Shown here piece by piece: positions 37,078 through 46,998 of a stretch of DNA of 64,000 nt. Position 1 is the first letter of the stretch; every line of letters begins with the position of its first letter. The stretch is from Desulfonauticus submarinus (GTDB lineage Bacteria; Desulfobacterota; Desulfovibrionia; Desulfovibrionales; Desulfonatronovibrionaceae). The notes below the pieces were generated by a model that saw nothing but the letters and a program-made list of their open reading frames with translations, searched no databases and was not told the DNA's origin. Position numbers and translations under genes: made by a program. The DNA is taken from positions 1 through 64,000 of the forward strand of contig NZ_FNIN01000003.1 of assembly GCF_900104045.1 (NCBI RefSeq), given 5' to 3'.

Positions 37078-37932
37078 CTACCGTAAAAGCAAAATAGAAG
37101 AAGGGGTATTATTAATCAGATTATTTATTCTATCATTGGGAATTAATTTCTTTAAAAATGATTGCTGGCCTACCCATAAAGCTATAATATCTTTTTGAGC
37201 AACTTGATTTAAAAAAGAAGGTAAAACACTCTTGTCCACTACTTCTAACCAAACAGAAATATCTTGTTTTAAATAATACATAAGAAGATCTTTCATTGTT
37301 TTTTCCACTTTAACCTTCATGGTATTGTTCTCTGCTATACCCACAATCTTTATATCTGCTCTATATAAAGTAGAAAGCTGGTTTATTAATTCTAAAGACT
37401 CCTGAGTAATGTGACTATTATCTAAACAGCAAACAATTTCTTCTGGAGTTTTATTTTCCTTTACAATCAAAACAGAACAGGAAACTTTATTTGCTATAAG
37501 CGCAGGAATATCTTTTCCTCGCCATTTACAATTAGTATTTTTGTCACATCCTATTACTAATAAAGACGGCTTAACCTCTCTCACCTGATTTAAAATTCCA
37601 TCTATATAATCCCCAGTACAAATAACTGCTTTTAATTTTTTTCTCCCCTTTTTGCTTTGAAAAATAAAAGAATTTTTGTCTTTAGGGCTAAATTCTATTT
37701 TTTCTGGTAAATTATATGGACAAAAGTTACCATCATAATAAGAAATTATTGTCTGTAAGTAATCAATTGTTGTCTTTACTATAGAGCTATTTCTTATATC
37801 AAAAGATTCATCTCTTTTTTCTGGAAAACCAAGTAAAGTAATATCACACCACGTATTCAAAGCTATTTTTGAAATCTCGTGAATAACATAGGAACTATAG
37901 GGATAATTATCTATAACTACTAAAATATTCAT
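37078..37932 (-). CDS. Universal-stress-type protein, two tandem Usp domains
   Basis: A 284-residue protein with two Usp-like alpha/beta domains. The first (1 to about 157) starts MNILVVIDNYPYSSYVIHEI and ends VREVKPSLLVIGCDKNTNCKWRGKDIPALIANKVSCSVLIVK, the best match to the family's nucleotide-binding end. The second (about 163-284) is more diverged and ends SSILLLR. The ATP-binding G-x2-G-x9-G(S/T) motif is not clean in either. It is the last gene of the sigma-54-type operon, 23 nt after another Usp-like gene. Confidence 0.75.
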   Translation of the reverse strand: MNILVVIDNYPYSSYVIHEISKIALNTWCDITLLGFPEKRDESFDIRNSSIVKTTIDYLQTIISYYDGNFCPYNLPEKIEFSPKDKNSFIFQSKKGRKKLKAVICTGDYIDGILNQVREVKPSLLVIGCDKNTNCKWRGKDIPALIANKVSCSVLIVKENKTPEEIVCCLDNSHITQESLELINQLSTLYRADIKIVGIAENNTMKVKVEKTMKDLLMYYLKQDISVWLEVVDKSVLPSFLNQVAQKDIIALWVGQQSFLKKLIPNDRINNLINNTPSSILLLR

Positions 37933-37955: not shown

Positions 37956-38741
37956 TTACTTCCAGAAAATAAGACTAGATATGGGACTATGAACTAAAAT
38001 ATCTGTAATAGCTGTTTTGGGTCCTTTTTTATCAATCAAAGAAACAACCATATCTCCTTCTCTAAGCATGTGGCCAATATCTTGACTTGTACCCTCTACT
38101 TCTAAAACATCTGGTGAATCTAATCCATAAGCATTAAATATATCTTTTACTTTATTAATCGGAAAATCATTATTTTTTTGTTCAAAACATCCATATTTAT
38201 AACAAAGTAAAGTAAGCTTATATGGAAGATGTTTATATAAATTAGCATAATTAGAAACAAGCAACTCTACATCAGAATATTTATCTATCAAAAAATAAAC
38301 ATTTTTATATTGAGTTATATTCTTCACTAATAACACAGGAACCATTACATTTTGCACTAATTCACTTTTCAAAAAATCATAAAAACTATGAAATCCAAAA
38401 GAAGCAAGCATTCCTATTGCAAAAAGATCATATATACCTCTTTTAATCTCTTTAATAATCTCTGTTTCAACATTTCCAACTACTACTTTCACTGCAGATA
38501 ATCCCCTGCAGTTATTAATTTCTGTCTTAATAAATCCTTCAATAATACTTCTACTTGTATCTTGAATAGTTCTTTCCCATGTTTTCCTCACCCAACCTAC
38601 GCCCACAGGATAATGATCTTGTTCTTTTGCTTCTACATGAAAAGGCTGGATAGACATTGGAACTAAAAGAGAATGTTTACAAATATAACGCAAACTTATA
38701 CTTGAAGCTAAATTATCATCTAAATATATTAATACATTCAT
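37956..38741 (-). CDS. Universal-stress-like protein, diverged tandem domains
   Basis: A 261-residue protein that starts MNVLIYLDDNLASSISLRYICKHSLLVPMSIQPF like a Usp domain and contains EIIKEIKRGIYDLFAIGMLASFGFHSFYDFLKSELVQNVMVPVLLVK, the domain-one end. The second half is a degenerate repeat ending SPISSLIFWK. It looks like a paralogue of the downstream gene. Family assignment rests on fold-like pattern, not on an intact nucleotide motif. It lies 31 nt after the receiver gene. Confidence 0.65.
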   Translation of the reverse strand: MNVLIYLDDNLASSISLRYICKHSLLVPMSIQPFHVEAKEQDHYPVGVGWVRKTWERTIQDTSRSIIEGFIKTEINNCRGLSAVKVVVGNVETEIIKEIKRGIYDLFAIGMLASFGFHSFYDFLKSELVQNVMVPVLLVKNITQYKNVYFLIDKYSDVELLVSNYANLYKHLPYKLTLLCYKYGCFEQKNNDFPINKVKDIFNAYGLDSPDVLEVEGTSQDIGHMLREGDMVVSLIDKKGPKTAITDILVHSPISSLIFWK

Positions 38742-38772: not shown

Positions 38773-39159
38773 TTAATTTTGTGTTTTTATTTTTTCTGCA
38801 GCTTTATTTAAGACTTCTTTTAATTCACTTAATCTAAAAGGTTTAGCCAAAAAATCAAAAACTCCTCGTTTAAATGACTCTTTAGCTGTATCCATAGTTG
38901 CAAATCCTGTAATTACAATAACCTCTGTTTTAGGATTTAGTTCTTTAACTTCTGTTAAAAATTCTATTCCATCTATACCTTCCATTTTTAAATCTGTAAC
39001 GACTATATCAAAAGGATGTTTTCTAAACCTCTCTAATGCATCAATACTTCTTGTAAAAGTCTCTACTTTATACCCAGCCTTTTCTAAAGAAGGTTTTAGT
39101 CTCTTAGTAACAATAGGCTCATCATCTAAAACTAAAACACTTATCTCATCTTTTGACAT
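38773..39159 (-). CDS. Stand-alone response-regulator receiver
   Basis: A 128-residue CheY-like receiver with no output domain. It has the acidic pair in VLDDEP, the phospho-acceptor Asp in IVVTDLKMEGIDGIEFL, the Thr in VIVITGFATMD and the Lys in FLAKPFRLSEL, so it is competent for phosphorylation. It would work by protein contact. It is encoded between the PPDK-like enzyme and the Usp proteins, which are the obvious partner candidates. The ribosome-binding site is AGGAGG. Confidence 0.9.
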   Translation of the reverse strand: MSKDEISVLVLDDEPIVTKRLKPSLEKAGYKVETFTRSIDALERFRKHPFDIVVTDLKMEGIDGIEFLTEVKELNPKTEVIVITGFATMDTAKESFKRGVFDFLAKPFRLSELKEVLNKAAEKIKTQN

Positions 39160-39193: not shown

Positions 39194-41743
39194 TTACTCT
39201 ACATTTTTAATAATACTACTAAAATCTTCTAAAAAATAATCTATTTTCTTTTCATCTATTAATTTTACATCTAATTGTCTGGTATAAGATACTAAAACAC
39301 CTAAAATAAAAATTTTCTTTAAAATATATTCTTTCATCATACCTTTTAACCTTCCTATTACTAAATCACCTTTTACTGTAGTAAGAAAATCATTCTGTAA
39401 TAGTATCTTTTCAATTAATCTTGCTCTTCTGCTTCTTCTTTCATTCTCTGTAACTCCTCCAAAAAATCGAAAATAAATATAATTATCAGAAGCATTCTCT
39501 CTAACCAACGTATCCAACATGGTAAAATGATAACCTAACCGCAAACTTATATTTGCATACTCCTTTGATACTACAGCTAAATTTTGACCTACAAATTTAG
39601 GATCAGCTAAATGGGGAGAAAATGTTCTACTCAAACTAGACATAAATCCTCTAAAATCAACACCTATAGGTTCTCTTGACCAAATATTAGAATAAGAAGC
39701 TCCTTTTATAAAAGTCTTCAAAGGCAAAGAAGATACATCTTTTATATCAACCTCTTTCAGGTCTGGAGGGAATTCCTGATCAAGGTCTATAATAATTAAG
39801 TCCAAAGGAATTGCTGTTTTTAATTTTTTAGCAGAGCTATCTCCGTTTACATTAGCATAATAATTTTTTTCTATTAACTCTTGCACAGCCTTTTCATGAA
39901 TAAAACGAATAATATCATGAAGAGTTCTACAATTTTCTGCCTTAAAATTTTTATCTCCTGCTTCTATCAAGTTTAAGGGAGATACTTTTTGAAAAATACG
40001 CTTTAAAATTCTATATTCTCTAGTTTCTTCAAACTTATCTTCCACAAAATCATAATAACACATATGTTTCAAAAGACCTTTATAAACTATATTATCAGTA
40101 GCATTTAAAGTAATCTCTTCACCATCTTGAAGGACTTTAGTAGCAATTTTTGTATTTACAACCATAGGAACTCTAAATTCTCTTGCAATTGTAGCCAGAT
40201 GTCCTACTGGAGATCCCCTATCAGTAATAATTCCATTTACATATTTTATAAATCTGGCCAAACGAGGAGAAGGATATTCTGCTACCAAAATTTTGTCATG
40301 TAGTGCCTGTGAATCTATATCTAAATCTTTAGAAACTTTAAGGACTTCCCCAAAACAAATTCCTTGCTGAACAATATTACCTTTTTGAGCAAAAATTATT
40401 TCCAAGTTATCTTGTTTCTCTTTTAAATCACAATGTAATACCACATCCCCTAAATTTAAATGACGAGATTGCAAAATAATAAGATTATCATTTTGATCAA
40501 AACAAAATTCTATATCTTGCGGATGCTTAAAGTAACGTTCAAGTTTGCATGCAGTACAAGCAAGTGTCTTAATTTTATCTTCATCTAGACACGCTTTATC
40601 TACATATTTTTCTTCTACCTCGCTTTCTATTAATCTTTTTGTATTAGTATCAAAAATAGTAGTATGTTGTTTTATTCCTATATTCATCCCCAAAATATCA
40701 TAAGGAAAAGTTCTTTGGACATAAAATACGTCTCCCTCTCTTCTTCCTCCTACAATATCAACTGCCAAGCCATAAATAGCTGCAATAACCATCCTATCTA
40801 GTTTATTCTCACTGACATCTAAAGTATAAACTACTCCACTCACTTTAGGATTTAACATCACCTGACATCCAACTGCCATAGCAATCTCTCTTTCTCCAAA
40901 ATCTTTATCTCGTCTATATTCCATAGCTCTTCTAGAGTAAGTACTAGCTAATACTTTTTTATAAGCTTCTATCAAACCTTTCTCATCTACTCCTAAAAAA
41001 CTAGAATATAAACCAGCAAAAGAATGTTCGCTGTCTTCTCCAATACAACTACTGCGAACTGCAAAATATAATTCATCTACATTTAGTTTATTTTTTAACT
41101 CTTGAATTGATTGTTTTATTTCTGCTTCAAAATCATCAGTAAGCTCAACCTGTAAAATTTCCTCTTGTAAAAGTTTTGAAGCATCATTAAGATCAATTTT
41201 TTTGTTTCTCCATAATTCTAATATCTCTTGTATTCTCTCAGAGCGTTTACTTGCATGTACAAAAAACTTATATCCTTGAGTAGTAATCACAAATCCTTCT
41301 GGTGTAGGTAAACCCAAAACATTTTTAATTCGTGCCAAACAAGCATTTTTTCCTCCCACAACATCATCCATTCCTTCTTCTATATCCTCATAAAATATAG
41401 TATAATTGTAATCAGGAATATATACATTTCCTTTTAACTCTTCTTGCAAGCCATCCTTTATTTCAGCATATTTATCAAATAATTCTCTATATTTTCCAGG
41501 GGAAATAAAGTCTAAGTTTGAAATCATTTTATATACATTATCTAAAAGTTCCAAAGTCCTATCAGAAATAAATTTACTATCAAAAATATACTCTCCACTT
41601 AAGACTTCTCCCATTTCTGACATAATCTCCAAAGCTCTATTATTCGCTCGAATAAGACGTTGAAAGTGAATAAAAAGCTTTCTTAAAGGAGGACCCTTAG
41701 GCCCTCCTTTTTTAGAAAAAAAACTCAAAATATTTTTAAACAT
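39194..41743 (-). CDS. PPDK/PEP-synthase-like phosphotransferase with unknown C-terminal domain
   Basis: An 849-residue protein. Residues 1-115 form a helical N-terminal region. The ATP-grasp PEP/pyruvate-kinase domain runs from about 115 to 430: DDVVGGKNACLARIKNVLGLPTPEGFVITT (127-155), AVRSSCIGEDSEHSFAGLYSSFLGV (228-252) and KHPQDIEFCFDQNDNLIILQSR (406-427). The swivelling phospho-histidine domain spans about 450-555, with His515 in TDRGSPVGHLATIAREFRVPMVV. The PEP/pyruvate TIM barrel that should follow is absent. Instead there is a 290-residue region I cannot assign, with SLRLGYHFTMLDTLVRENASDNYIYFRFFGGV. It should take phosphate from ATP onto His515 and pass it to an unknown acceptor. Confidence 0.8.
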   Translation of the reverse strand: MFKNILSFFSKKGGPKGPPLRKLFIHFQRLIRANNRALEIMSEMGEVLSGEYIFDSKFISDRTLELLDNVYKMISNLDFISPGKYRELFDKYAEIKDGLQEELKGNVYIPDYNYTIFYEDIEEGMDDVVGGKNACLARIKNVLGLPTPEGFVITTQGYKFFVHASKRSERIQEILELWRNKKIDLNDASKLLQEEILQVELTDDFEAEIKQSIQELKNKLNVDELYFAVRSSCIGEDSEHSFAGLYSSFLGVDEKGLIEAYKKVLASTYSRRAMEYRRDKDFGEREIAMAVGCQVMLNPKVSGVVYTLDVSENKLDRMVIAAIYGLAVDIVGGRREGDVFYVQRTFPYDILGMNIGIKQHTTIFDTNTKRLIESEVEEKYVDKACLDEDKIKTLACTACKLERYFKHPQDIEFCFDQNDNLIILQSRHLNLGDVVLHCDLKEKQDNLEIIFAQKGNIVQQGICFGEVLKVSKDLDIDSQALHDKILVAEYPSPRLARFIKYVNGIITDRGSPVGHLATIAREFRVPMVVNTKIATKVLQDGEEITLNATDNIVYKGLLKHMCYYDFVEDKFEETREYRILKRIFQKVSPLNLIEAGDKNFKAENCRTLHDIIRFIHEKAVQELIEKNYYANVNGDSSAKKLKTAIPLDLIIIDLDQEFPPDLKEVDIKDVSSLPLKTFIKGASYSNIWSREPIGVDFRGFMSSLSRTFSPHLADPKFVGQNLAVVSKEYANISLRLGYHFTMLDTLVRENASDNYIYFRFFGGVTENERRSRRARLIEKILLQNDFLTTVKGDLVIGRLKGMMKEYILKKIFILGVLVSYTRQLDVKLIDEKKIDYFLEDFSSIIKNVE

Positions 41744-41816: not shown

Positions 41817-42584
41817 TTAATGAGCTCCTCCCTTATCTTTAAATAAAAATCCCATAAAAATACCTGCAAAAATTGCTATTATTACAGATAGTATACCATA
41901 GATTAAACTATGATTAAAGGCCATATTACTTATAAATGCGGGAAATCCTGTTAATTTAATCTGAAAATTATCAGACTCTGTTTTTACAATCTTTAAGTCA
42001 GGGGTCACCTCATAAACCTTAATAGTGTAAACACCAGGGACAATACGAGAAGGGAGATGAACCTCAACATGATATTTTTTCTTTTCAGCCGTGATATTAC
42101 TATAAGTCACTTGATCTTGATATATACCATATAATTTATCTCTTTGTTTTAATTTTAAAAATTCATTAAAAAGACTTTTTTTATCTTTTGGAATAGGATT
42201 AATCTCTAGTCTAGAATAAACTTCCTTATAACCAAGATTTAATTCATCAAACTTCTCTTGAGATAGATGGGAAAGAGATTTTGGCAAATACATTAAGTAA
42301 ATGGAAGGAACTCCCTTAAAGGCATAATGACCAACAGTCATCCAAAAAATACCCCATACTTTACCTTTTTGTTTAAATTTTTCTTCCTTATCGCTTCCTA
42401 ACACCTCTACTACTACATTATTATTGCTATTTACTTCTCCACTAACATAGAGCTTAGCTCCATTAAATGTTGTATTGATATTTATTTCTCTTGGATTATG
42501 CAAAAAAGCATGTGCAGCAATAGAGTAAAAATTAAAAATAAAAAGAGATAAAACTAATATTATATTAAATCTAAATCTTAACAT
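41817..42584 (-). CDS. TIGR02186-like membrane protein, partner of TauE/SafE
   Basis: A 255-residue protein with an N-terminal signal or membrane helix (FNIILVLSLFIFNFYSIAAHAF), a periplasmic beta-rich domain (REININTTFNGAKLYVSGEV, FWMTVGHYAFKGVPSIYLMY) and a C-terminal helix (ILSVIIAIFAGIFMGFLF). This matches the conserved hypothetical family TIGR02186 (Alph_Pro_TM), commonly encoded next to a TauE/SafE exporter. It starts 2 nt after the tauE-type gene. Function is unknown. Confidence 0.75.
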   Translation of the reverse strand: MLRFRFNIILVLSLFIFNFYSIAAHAFLHNPREININTTFNGAKLYVSGEVNSNNNVVVEVLGSDKEEKFKQKGKVWGIFWMTVGHYAFKGVPSIYLMYLPKSLSHLSQEKFDELNLGYKEVYSRLEINPIPKDKKSLFNEFLKLKQRDKLYGIYQDQVTYSNITAEKKKYHVEVHLPSRIVPGVYTIKVYEVTPDLKIVKTESDNFQIKLTGFPAFISNMAFNHSLIYGILSVIIAIFAGIFMGFLFKDKGGAH

Positions 42585-42586
42585 TT

Positions 42587-43513
42587 CTAGTGTCCTCCTG
42601 CATAAGCTAAAAGAATTTCTGGTCTACTCAAAAGGCCATATAGCATCTTCAACATTACTAAAATAACAATACTAGCCAAAATTATCTTTAATTGATCGCC
42701 TTTTAAATTCTTGCTAATTCTAGTCCCAAATTGAGCACCAATAGTAGAGCCTAAAAGAAGTAAAACAGCTAATACAAAATCAACAGTATGGTTAGAATAT
42801 GCTTGCATAACCGTAACATTAATACAGGTAAAAAGGATCTGAAACAGACTTGTACCAACTACTACATGCATGGGCATTCTAAGCAAATAAACCATTACAG
42901 GAACCATTATAAATCCTCCTCCAACTCCCATAATAGCAGCCAAAATGCCTACAAACACGCCTAATCCAAGAGGAATTAAAGCAGACATTTTAATCCCAGA
43001 TTTTTGAAAGTTTGTTTGAAAAGGCAAGGTTTTCATTAACTTGGCATACAAAGATTCTTTTGGTTCCTTAGAGGTAGCAATAGAATTGCTCCCACCTTTA
43101 AGAGACTGTAAACTCTCTACAAACATATATCCACCAACAACACCGAGCATTATCACATAAGTAATATTGATTAAAAAATCTGCATTCCCAAGGGCTTTTA
43201 AGACTTTAATAATATGTACCCCTATATCTCCACCAACAACACCTCCTATTAATAATAACATACCCATTTTAACATCTACATTACCCAACCTATAATGTGC
43301 AATGGTTCCAGAAGTTGATGCACCTACAATCTGATTAGAATCTGAAGCTGCAGCAACAGTTGGAGGAATACCAAACATAATAAGTAAAGGTGTCATTAAA
43401 AAACCACCACCAACTCCAAAAATTCCTGAAAGTAAACCTACTAATCCTCCTAATCCAAAAACTATTAAAATATTTACGCTGTTACCTGCTATTGGCAAAT
43501 ACATATGTAACAT
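42587..43513 (-). CDS. TauE/SafE-family sulfite/sulfonate exporter
   Basis: A 308-residue membrane protein with about eight helices and the internal repeat of the family: GGLVGLLSGIFGVGGGFLMTPLLIMFGIPPTVAAASDSNQ in the first half and GVFVGILAAIMGVGGGFIMVPVMVYLLRMPMHVVVGTSLFQ in the second. Members export sulfite, sulfoacetate or related organosulfur anions. In a sulfate reducer, sulfite protection is plausible. The gene lies between a small Usp-like gene (3-nt gap) and the TIGR02186 gene. Confidence 0.9.
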   Translation of the reverse strand: MLHMYLPIAGNSVNILIVFGLGGLVGLLSGIFGVGGGFLMTPLLIMFGIPPTVAAASDSNQIVGASTSGTIAHYRLGNVDVKMGMLLLIGGVVGGDIGVHIIKVLKALGNADFLINITYVIMLGVVGGYMFVESLQSLKGGSNSIATSKEPKESLYAKLMKTLPFQTNFQKSGIKMSALIPLGLGVFVGILAAIMGVGGGFIMVPVMVYLLRMPMHVVVGTSLFQILFTCINVTVMQAYSNHTVDFVLAVLLLLGSTIGAQFGTRISKNLKGDQLKIILASIVILVMLKMLYGLLSRPEILLAYAGGH

Positions 43514-43516
43514 ATT

Positions 43517-43906
43517 TTATTCTCTCCTTTCATATTTTTTTACAATTTCTAACTCACATCCATATTTATACCTCAATTCTTTTGCTATTTTTACAACTTC
43601 AGTATTATCTTCATTAGTAAAACTTAAAATAACAATATCTATAGATTTCTGCTTTACAAAATTCACAATCTCTTCTTTGAAATTACCACTACTTTTACAG
43701 TAAACACTTCTCACCTCCTTTACTTTTTTATTTAACATTTTTTTAATTTTTCCCTGATAGGTAGAAACACCTACCTTTATATTCTCTTTAGGAACAATAT
43801 CTAAAAAATAAATTTGTCCTTGCGTACGTTCTGCCACCTGCATGCCATGAAAAATAAGCCACAAATCAATCTTACCATTTAAAAAAGGGATTAATATTTT
43901 TGTCAT
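43517..43906 (-). CDS. Small Usp-like protein, first gene of the sigma-54-type operon
   Basis: A 129-residue alpha/beta protein (MTKILIPFLNGKIDLWLIFHGMQVAERTQGQIYFLDIV, then KEEIVNFVKQKSIDIVILSFTNEDNTEVVKIAKEL). The arrangement is that of a Usp domain, but the C-terminal ATP motif is missing. A GTG at 43939 would add 11 residues, but that stretch is the promoter itself. The ATG at 43906 has AAGG four bases upstream. The predicted sigma-54 transcription start is only a few bases upstream of this ATG, so the message may be almost leaderless. Confidence 0.65.
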   Translation of the reverse strand: MTKILIPFLNGKIDLWLIFHGMQVAERTQGQIYFLDIVPKENIKVGVSTYQGKIKKMLNKKVKEVRSVYCKSSGNFKEEIVNFVKQKSIDIVILSFTNEDNTEVVKIAKELRYKYGCELEIVKKYERRE

Positions 43907-43918
43907 GGACCTTACGAT

Positions 43919-43935
43919 GGCATATATTGTGCCAA
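43919..43935 (-). promoter_or_regulatory. Sigma-54 (-24/-12) promoter of the Usp-TauE-PPDK-like operon
   Basis: Minus-strand TTGGCACAATATATGCC matches YTGGCACGRNNNTTGCW with the invariant GG (43932-43933) and GC (43920-43921) at the correct 10-nt separation. Transcription should start near 43908. The NtrC-type gene immediately upstream makes it credible. Confidence 0.75.
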
Positions 43936-43985
43936 ACACAACATATTAAAATAATTACACTTTTTTAAAAAAGAAAAATAAAGAA

Positions 43986-44206: not shown

Positions 44207-45556
44207 TTAAGAAGATTTGAGATTAAATTTTTTTATTCTTCTCCATAAAGTAGTTTTAGGTAATCCTAAAATTGCAGCAGCAGTCTTTTTATCATATCCT
44301 GTAAATTCAAGAACCTTTTTAATATGTTTTTTTTCAACTTCTTCTAAAGACAATAACACATCACTATCTATTTTATCTAAATTAACAAGAGTTAAATCTG
44401 AGGGTAAATGTTTTGCTTTTATCTCATCTCCATCTGCAAGAGCCACAGCACGTTGGATAATATTTTCCAGTTCTCTAACATTTCCAGGAAAATCGTAATT
44501 GAGCAAGATTGTATATGCTTCTTCTGAAAGTCGTTTTATATTCTTGCCAAACTTTGTATTGTATTTAGTAATAAAATGAAAAATAAGGGGTTTTAAATCT
44601 TCCTTTCTTTCAGAAAGTCTAGGTAAATGTAAGGTAACAACATTTAGGCGAAAAAATAAATCCTCTCTAAATCTATTATCGTCTACTAACTTTCTTAAGT
44701 CTTTATTTGTAGCAGCAATAATTCTGATATCTAAATCAATTGGTTTGGTAGAACCTAATCTATAGATTCTTCTTTCTTCTATAACTTTTAATAACTTTAC
44801 TTGGAGTTTAAGAGGCATATCCCCTATTTCATCTAAAAAAACTGTTCCTTTATGAGCAGCCTCTAATAATCCTTTCTTACTAGAACTTGCTCCTGTAAAT
44901 GCTTCTTTATCGTGTCCAAAAAGCTCATTGGCAATCAGATCTTCTGTAAACGCTCCACAATTTATAGCGACAAAAGGACCTTTTTCCCTTGTACTCAACT
45001 CATGAATCATATGAGCAATCATTTCTTTACCAGTGCCAGTCTCACCTTGTAGCAAAACATTACAATTTAAAGGTGCTATTTTTTTAACCATATCTAAAAT
45101 TTCAACCATCTTAGGACATGTAGCAATAAAATTATTCTGAGATCTATTTGCAACAATTTGTTTTAAAAAAGCATTTTCCTGTTTTAATTTTATTTTTTCT
45201 AAAAGAGAACCCACAGTTAATTCTAATCTATTTTTAGACACAGGTTTTACTAAATAATCACACGCGCCTTGTTTTATTGCTTTTACAGCATTATCTATTG
45301 TAGAATCTCCTGTAACAATAACAATTTCTATAGATTTTTGAAGACGAGTAAGATATTCTAAAATTTTAAAACCATTTATATCAGGTAGCCCTAAATCTAA
45401 AAACAATAAATCATAATCTCGTTTTTCTAATTTAGCTAAAAAATCAGCACCATTATAAAAAACATCAGTTTGAATTGAAAATTTACTCTGAATAATTTTT
45501 GTTACCCGCTTACAAAAAATTTTATCATCATCTAAAATAGCTATTTTAGGCAACAT
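44207..45556 (-). CDS. NtrC-family sigma-54-dependent response regulator
   Basis: A 449-residue regulator with receiver, AAA+ and Fis-type domains. The receiver has ILDDDK and the phospho-acceptor in LLFLDLGLPDING. The AAA+ domain has Walker A GETGTGKE, Walker B GTVFLDEIGDMPL, the arginine-finger region FREDLFFRLNVV and PGNVRELENIIQRAV. The C-terminal HTH is GYDKKTAAAILGLPKTTLWRRIKKF. The sigma-54-contacting GAFTGA loop reads EAFTGA, a Glu in place of the first Gly. I start at ATG 45556, which has a purine-rich AGAAAGAGAGA upstream; a GTG at 45577 has no such site. It lies 35 nt after the kinase gene. Confidence 0.93.
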   Translation of the reverse strand: MLPKIAILDDDKIFCKRVTKIIQSKFSIQTDVFYNGADFLAKLEKRDYDLLFLDLGLPDINGFKILEYLTRLQKSIEIVIVTGDSTIDNAVKAIKQGACDYLVKPVSKNRLELTVGSLLEKIKLKQENAFLKQIVANRSQNNFIATCPKMVEILDMVKKIAPLNCNVLLQGETGTGKEMIAHMIHELSTREKGPFVAINCGAFTEDLIANELFGHDKEAFTGASSSKKGLLEAAHKGTVFLDEIGDMPLKLQVKLLKVIEERRIYRLGSTKPIDLDIRIIAATNKDLRKLVDDNRFREDLFFRLNVVTLHLPRLSERKEDLKPLIFHFITKYNTKFGKNIKRLSEEAYTILLNYDFPGNVRELENIIQRAVALADGDEIKAKHLPSDLTLVNLDKIDSDVLLSLEEVEKKHIKKVLEFTGYDKKTAAAILGLPKTTLWRRIKKFNLKSS

Positions 45557-45591
45557 ATAAAAATCTCTCTTTCTCACATAACATCATTAAA

Positions 45592-46998
45592 TTACGCGTC
45601 TTCTTCACAAGGAAAATAGACAAAAAAAGTAGTTCCTTTATTTTTTTCTGTCTCTACTCTTATCTTTCCGCCATGCTTTTTTACTATTCCATAAACAATA
45701 GAAAGCCCTAATCCAGTACCCTTACCCACTGGTTTGGTAGAAAAAAATGGATCAAATATTCTATCTAAAACATCAGGTGGCATACCTACTCCACTATCTT
45801 CCACAGCTACTTCAACATATCGCTTTCCATTTAATTCTGTTTCCTTTGTACTAATCTTTAAATAACCACCCTCGGGCATTGCCTGAATTGCATTCAAAAA
45901 CAAATTTATAAAAACTTGTTTTAAATTATCATAATTACCCTTTATCTTAGGAATATCCTTTTTGAATTCAGTAATTAATTGAATATTAGAAATCATAAGT
46001 TGATTTCTGACCAATTTTAAAGAAGATTTAACCACCTCTTGAATGTCTAAACTTTCATCTGCATCTTTTAACTTACTTCTTGAAAAATCTAACAAATTTT
46101 TTACCACCGTACTAGCTCGTCTTGCCTCTTCTATTATATCTGAAAGCATTTCTTCTCGTTCTTCTACAGACAAATCCTTCCATTCGTCTACAAGCATCTC
46201 AGCAGTAAGAGAAATATTGTTTAATGGGTTATTTAATTCATGAGCCACTCCAGAAACCAATGTACCTACTGATGCTAATTTTTTGGCCTGAAGTAGATCT
46301 TTTTCTCTTGCTTCAAGCTCTTTTATCATCAAGTTAAAAGCCTCTATAATTGGCGCAAATGAAGACACTCTATCTTTTACTGTAGGAATATAACTAAAAT
46401 CACCATTAGCAATTCTAATGGTTGTTTCTTGAATAAATTTTATCTGTTTTAATAAAGTATAAGTTATGAAAATTAAAAAAATTATTAATAAAGTACCAAA
46501 TAAAAACATCAAAACAGAAGGTATTAATAACAGCCTATTTAAAGATTTATTGACATATACCTTATTTACAGAAAGTATTTTTTTTGCAATAGTTAATATT
46601 TCGTGACCAAGTTCTCTTATTTTATTCACATTAGGTTTTTTCTTATTCTTTACTTCAGTGATAATTTTTTTATATTCAGCAAGTTTTTCTTTTAAATCAA
46701 CAATGCATTTTTTACATTCTGGAAATTTCTGTTTTAGCATAAATTCATTTGAATCTTTTTCTATTTTACTAATATAAAGCAAAACTTCACTTAAATCATT
46801 TACATCTATACCAAAAGCAAAATTCTTTTCATATCTTCTAAGTTCAAGAACATCTTCCATAAAATCATGAGCCCGTTCTAAAGAATTTAATTCTTCTTTA
46901 AACACATTCATATTATAGATATAAGCAATTAAATGAAAAATAAGGAAAATAGCAGAGGCCGCTGTAATTAAAATAATCCGAAGCTTAAGGTCTTTCAT
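45592..46998 (-). CDS. Membrane sensor histidine kinase (NtrB-like partner)
   Basis: A 468-residue kinase. Two membrane helices (residues about 8-28 and 158-180) enclose an extracytoplasmic helical sensor of about 130 residues with CKKC in its middle. A HAMP-like linker follows ([15 protein letters not shown]). The HisKA motif is [21 protein letters not shown], and the ATPase boxes are [62 protein letters not shown]. It should phosphorylate the adjacent sigma-54 regulator. The CxxC in the sensor could report redox or metals, which is a guess. It starts 26 nt after radA with AAGAGGT as binding site. Confidence 0.93.

Follow-up and report, generated by a model that had tools for sequence, protein, structure and literature searches.

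The 849-aa protein P0001, encoded at 39194-41743 of the window (the whole 64,000-nucleotide stretch of Desulfonauticus submarinus DNA analysed here), combines the ATP-grasp and phosphohistidine domains of PEP synthase with an undescribed C-terminal domain (CTD), which, judged from its sequence, is a distinct, strongly conserved unit that stands where the PEP/pyruvate barrel would be. Its conserved residues form a set like that of an enzyme. Beyond the original prediction, the CTD family proved to be spread through the phylum, with linkage to TauE/TSUP transporter genes and published mutant phenotypes for a matching gene. The phylum-wide gene order, combined with the published mutants of a matching operon, ties the CTD to anion uptake in sulfate-reducing bacteria. 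The choice that these bacteria make between sulfate, thiosulfate and inhibitory analogues like nitrate is relevant to the control of oil-field souring, and, now that the domain is assigned, point mutants can test the roles of the nitrate-cluster genes, which were left open in 2014.

Domain layout of P0001

The open reading frame was recovered at the coordinates originally given for it and lies on the minus strand, as do the other genes and the domains of the window given with coordinates below. The nucleotide domain that had been claimed for residues 115-430 corresponds to a Pfam PPDK_N ATP-grasp domain at residues 127-428 (40460-41365; E 3e-76), and the nucleotide-binding residues, checked for loss, are still there at all eight ATP-site positions (K132, R230, E236, D237, D410, E412, Q425 and R427). 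The placement of His515 in a swivelling-domain motif was likewise borne out by a Pfam PEP-utilizers phosphohistidine domain at residues 483-549 (40097-40297; E 1.4e-16). This histidine (codon at 40199-40201) sits within GSPVGHLATIAR and is found in 133 of the 135 family members. The N-terminal extension (residues 1-112; 41408-41743) has no Pfam match and carries the family-conserved residues F27, N34 and L88, with F27 found in 48/48 homologs and N34 in 97% of them.

The CTD, of 294 residues, follows the phosphohistidine domain (residues 556-849; 39197-40078). The proposal that the last ~290 residues contain no TIM barrel agrees with all the searches: no Pfam, NCBIfam or PDB sequence match was found, the Pfam search of residues 557-849 giving zero matches, the alignment of the NCBIfam PEP synthase models to P0001 ending at residue 561, and the PDB relatives covering only the ATP-grasp and phosphohistidine parts. 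PEP-utilizers_C was found in none of the 48 CTD-family members scanned by Pfam, the CTD lay outside Pfam in all 48, and the 48-member CTD alignment had no match among PDB sequences. The domain search for a barrel (PF02896) across the whole genome did not match P0001 and matched two other genes, at C6 and C7. In addition to a canonical 1214-aa barrel-bearing enzyme, this genome encodes a 601-aa barrel protein (C6) about as long as an Enzyme I, which, from its size, is probably PtsI. In profile-profile comparison, the CTD profile matched two sets of true barrels at a probability of 0.1%, whereas the two barrel sets, which were shallow (5 and 8 sequences) yet readily matched, found each other at 100%. 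A hidden PEP barrel in the CTD is contradicted at the sequence level by the PF02896 search and the profile comparison. The well-structured block pointed out earlier in this region (SLRLGYHF...NYIYFRFFGG) proved real and conserved, with H739, G762 and G763 invariant among 48 homologs. AlphaFold with two-sequence input gave a pLDDT of 36 for the CTD (window plus relative L006) and of 30 for full-length P0001, for which even the ATP-grasp was not recovered. We found the CTD described nowhere in the open-licence papers searched.

Spread and conservation of the CTD family

By profile search, the CTD family was found in 146/395 sampled genomes of the phylum, with up to 8 matches per genome and frames of mostly 800-950 codons. 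With the CTD alone (293 aa) as query, relatives were found in 233/297 genomes of the class. One genome-contig scan yielded a single relative, L006, and the viral contigs and plasmids searched contained no additional sequences. The present genome also encodes a full-length CTD paralog (L074, 789 aa). D610, H616, R773 and D793 of the CTD are invariant in 135/135 full-length members, and H609, H739 and D825 are found in 134/135; P0001 itself carries all of them. The ATP-site residues are more variable than those of the CTD, being kept in 118-127 of the 135 members.

Twelve copies have a degenerate ATP-grasp with His515 and the CTD kept, and all of them lie beside intact copies in operons of the window type. 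Window-type operons with three CTD-family genes were observed for L053, L055, L056, L050, L052, L054, L044, L046, L047, L051, L171 and L180, where one of the three genes has a degenerate ATP-grasp and an intact His515 and CTD. L098 and L114 have lost the ATP site, carry Arg in place of His515 and keep the CTD residues; both adjoin a histidine kinase, a receiver and an intact family copy. That copies with a dead ATP site, some of them also without His515, keep the CTD indicates selection on this domain in its own right. By analogy with the split dikinase HpeHI, a precedent for phosphorylation of a His domain in trans (PMC12167813), the dead-ATP-site copies may be phosphorylated in trans by their neighbours.

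Operon context, transporters and the nitrate cluster

In the gene order of the window operon, first come a sensor histidine kinase (45592-46998; assigned from its homology cluster and sequence, and conserved beside the operon) and a sigma-54-dependent response regulator (44207-45577; Pfam), followed by a small universal stress protein (Usp)-like protein (43517-43906), whose orthologs match Usp and for which the ATG at 43906 is a likelier start than the end of the listed frame at 43939. Then come a 308-aa TauE/SafE (TSUP) transporter (42587-43513; Pfam), a 255-aa TIGR02186/Alph_Pro_TM membrane protein (41817-42584), P0001, and a 128-aa stand-alone receiver (38773-39159) with intact phosphorylation residues D12, D13, D56, T84 and K106. 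The last two genes encode a 261-aa operon-conserved protein without a Pfam match (37956-38741) and a 284-aa Usp family protein (37078-37932), the orthologs of which pass the Pfam cut-off. This order recurs in further families and, outside Desulfovibrionia, in additional classes of the phylum, and all 40 members of the P0001 clade (support 1.0) lie in operons of this type. An inverted repeat, TGGCA-N7-TGCCA (43919-43935), lies a short way upstream of where the ribosome-binding site of the first Usp-like gene is likely to be, and is possibly an operator. A sigma-54 promoter ahead of the Usp gene is not claimed, because the top-ranked site coincides in part with the likely start and chance matches of this kind are common. 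The search for anti-phage defence gave no match.

Across ten complete or near-complete genomes, a TauE/TSUP gene was located within 10 kb of 19 of the 35 family loci, compared with 1.46 expected, and 19 linked loci were reached in 0 of 20,000 random placements. Among the 135 members, a non-random sample, TauE lies within 6 kb of 87, and 12 have an SLC13 sodium:sulfate symporter no more than 8 kb away. Neither transporter nor receiver is near 18 of the 135, so that transporter control need not lie at the core of the chemistry. The receivers that lie within 300 bases of a family gene and in the same orientation keep their five phosphorylation residues in 48/48 cases. L071, L109, L120, L132 and L135 lie near SLC13 sodium:sulfate symporter and CBS-domain genes, and a transporter-free group (L057, L058 and L060) adjoins a gene for a PreP-type M16 peptidase. 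Genome G000 contains three TauE-family copies with identical scores (C5:146-1051, C6:111476-112381 and C18:117-1022), two of them at contig ends, possibly an assembly-breaking repeat.

A second clade of 13 members (support 1.0) includes the paralog L074. Its gene order is TauE, small protein, PtxB-like, histidine kinase, receiver, PPDK-like and dual-specificity phosphatase, its members being labelled by their phosphatase neighbour and their clusters not all complete; that of L074 is without TauE. This order equals the gene list of the nitrate cluster of D. vulgaris (DVU0251-0245) and D. alaskensis, and it is found in members of this separate clade and not around P0001. In both of these model sulfate reducers, loss of the gene that seems to correspond confers nitrate resistance. 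Insertions in DVU0246 (PPDK-like), DVU0247 (receiver), DVU0250 and DVU0251 (TauE) of D. vulgaris gave equal growth with and without 100 mM nitrate, whereas mutants in DVU0245 (phosphatase), unlike the other cluster mutants, were still inhibited by nitrate (PMC4001038). The D. alaskensis cluster mutants were mildly sick on thiosulfate, and the authors proposed a leaky thiosulfate transporter, leaving the gene roles open (PMC4001038). The nitrate-cluster genes are needed for nitrate sensitivity, with the reservation that insertions could be polar. DVU0246 is probably a CTD-family member, as suggested by gene order and domain annotation rather than by alignment of its sequence. The genetic support for P0001 is qualified, because the mutants concern a paralogous operon, the gene match is by annotation and order, and the insertions are possibly polar.

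Proposed mechanism and relation to known systems

With an intact ATP site and His motif, no barrel and a conserved CTD, the natural reading of P0001 is an ATP-dependent phosphotransferase with a different acceptor. The original prediction had proposed just this; its architectural part stands, and the activity and the acceptor are still predictions. We propose that P0001 may be a dikinase of the PEP synthase type that has taken on a signalling role, acting as an ATP-driven phosphohistidine regulator on which anion uptake depends; this tentative model falls a little short of probable. ATP would phosphorylate His515 via the swivelling-domain chemistry of PEP synthase, and the His domain would then swing onto a putative CTD active site (HD..R..HE helix, GYHF, RR.RR, GD and R..D). 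The CTD would relay the phosphate, most likely to a partner encoded in the operon (the receiver, a Usp or a transporter-associated protein), and this phosphorylation would turn on uptake through the TauE/TSUP transporter encoded with them. The paralog operon, which corresponds to the nitrate cluster, would play the same role for a transporter presumed to move thiosulfate and to be leaky for nitrate. We favour a protein acceptor, since receivers, kinases and the phosphatase recur in CTD-family operons; no biochemistry of any CTD-family member was found in the open-licence literature.

A small-molecule acceptor has to be taken seriously as an alternative, since every characterised dikinase that we found with an exchanged acceptor domain acts on small molecules (rifampin phosphotransferase, HpeHI and phenylphosphate synthase serve as models). 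The CTD would then phosphorylate a metabolite or a compound derived from the imported anion, and the transporter would import or clear that compound. Conserved His, Asp and Arg abound in the CTD, as is typical of enzyme pockets that bind charged ligands, and these residues stay the same beside different transporters and without any, which points to one shared chemistry. However, the domain order differs from that of the small-molecule dikinases, and the neighbours are not metabolic enzymes but receivers and histidine kinases, joined in the nitrate-type cluster by a phosphatase; on balance, we consider this explanation somewhat unlikely. Distinctly less credible is a CTD that senses a ligand or has a regulatory function and carries out no phosphotransfer itself, the phosphorylation state of the histidine being set by energy charge and read by the receiver or transporter. 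The close association with two-component genes would fit, and L098 and L114, retaining the CTD residues without ATP site or His515, indicate that the CTD can be maintained without phosphotransfer; on the other hand, His515 is kept in all 12 dead-ATP-site copies of the window-type operons, which suggests phosphorylation in trans. An ordinary PEP synthase or PPDK with a barrel diverged past recognition would suit the PEP synthase domain order and similar C-terminal length of P0001, but is highly improbable given the PF02896 matches to two true barrels and not to P0001, the profile comparison and the canonical enzyme already in the genome.

A broader reading is a phylum-wide ATP-driven phosphohistidine relay that would control or energise TSUP and SLC13 anion uptake via the undescribed acceptor domain, with dedicated dead-ATP-site subunits phosphorylated in trans by their neighbours. 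We regard this reading as speculative and rather unlikely; if true, the relay would amount to an ATP-powered equivalent of the PTS.

Compared with known systems, P0001 shares with PEP synthase (TIGR01418, PRK06464) an ATP-grasp followed by a phosphohistidine domain, with catalytic residues intact, and differs from it in the CTD, the missing PEP/pyruvate barrel and the extra N-terminal extension. By its profile matches it is homologous to PEP synthase in these two domains, yet it gave no barrel match and scored below the cut-offs of both models (269.8 vs 739.75 bits for TIGR01418; 286.2 vs 598 bits for PRK06464). DVU0246/Dde_0604, annotated with ATP-grasp and mobile domains, lies beside receiver and TauE genes, as P0001 does (PMC4001038), and L074, in the DVU0246-type gene order, carries the same CTD; P0001, however, falls in a different clade, and its type of operon has Usp and TIGR02186 genes but neither a PtxB nor a phosphatase gene. 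The combination of ATP-grasp, swivelling His domain and non-barrel acceptor domain is also found in rifampin phosphotransferase (RPH), HpeHI, CreHI and PpsAB. The analogy with RPH drawn in the original prediction holds for the swapped acceptor part and not for the domain order: RPH runs ATP-grasp, acceptor domain, His domain (PMC4844700), whereas the new domain of P0001 follows the His domain, at the position of the PEP synthase barrel, which makes the analogy only partial. Against the RPH model NF041857, P0001 scored 178.2 bits (cut-off 999). Finally, Enzyme I of the PTS (PtsI) has a homologous phosphohistidine domain and a phosphate relay tied to transport, but it uses PEP and a barrel where P0001 has an ATP-grasp.
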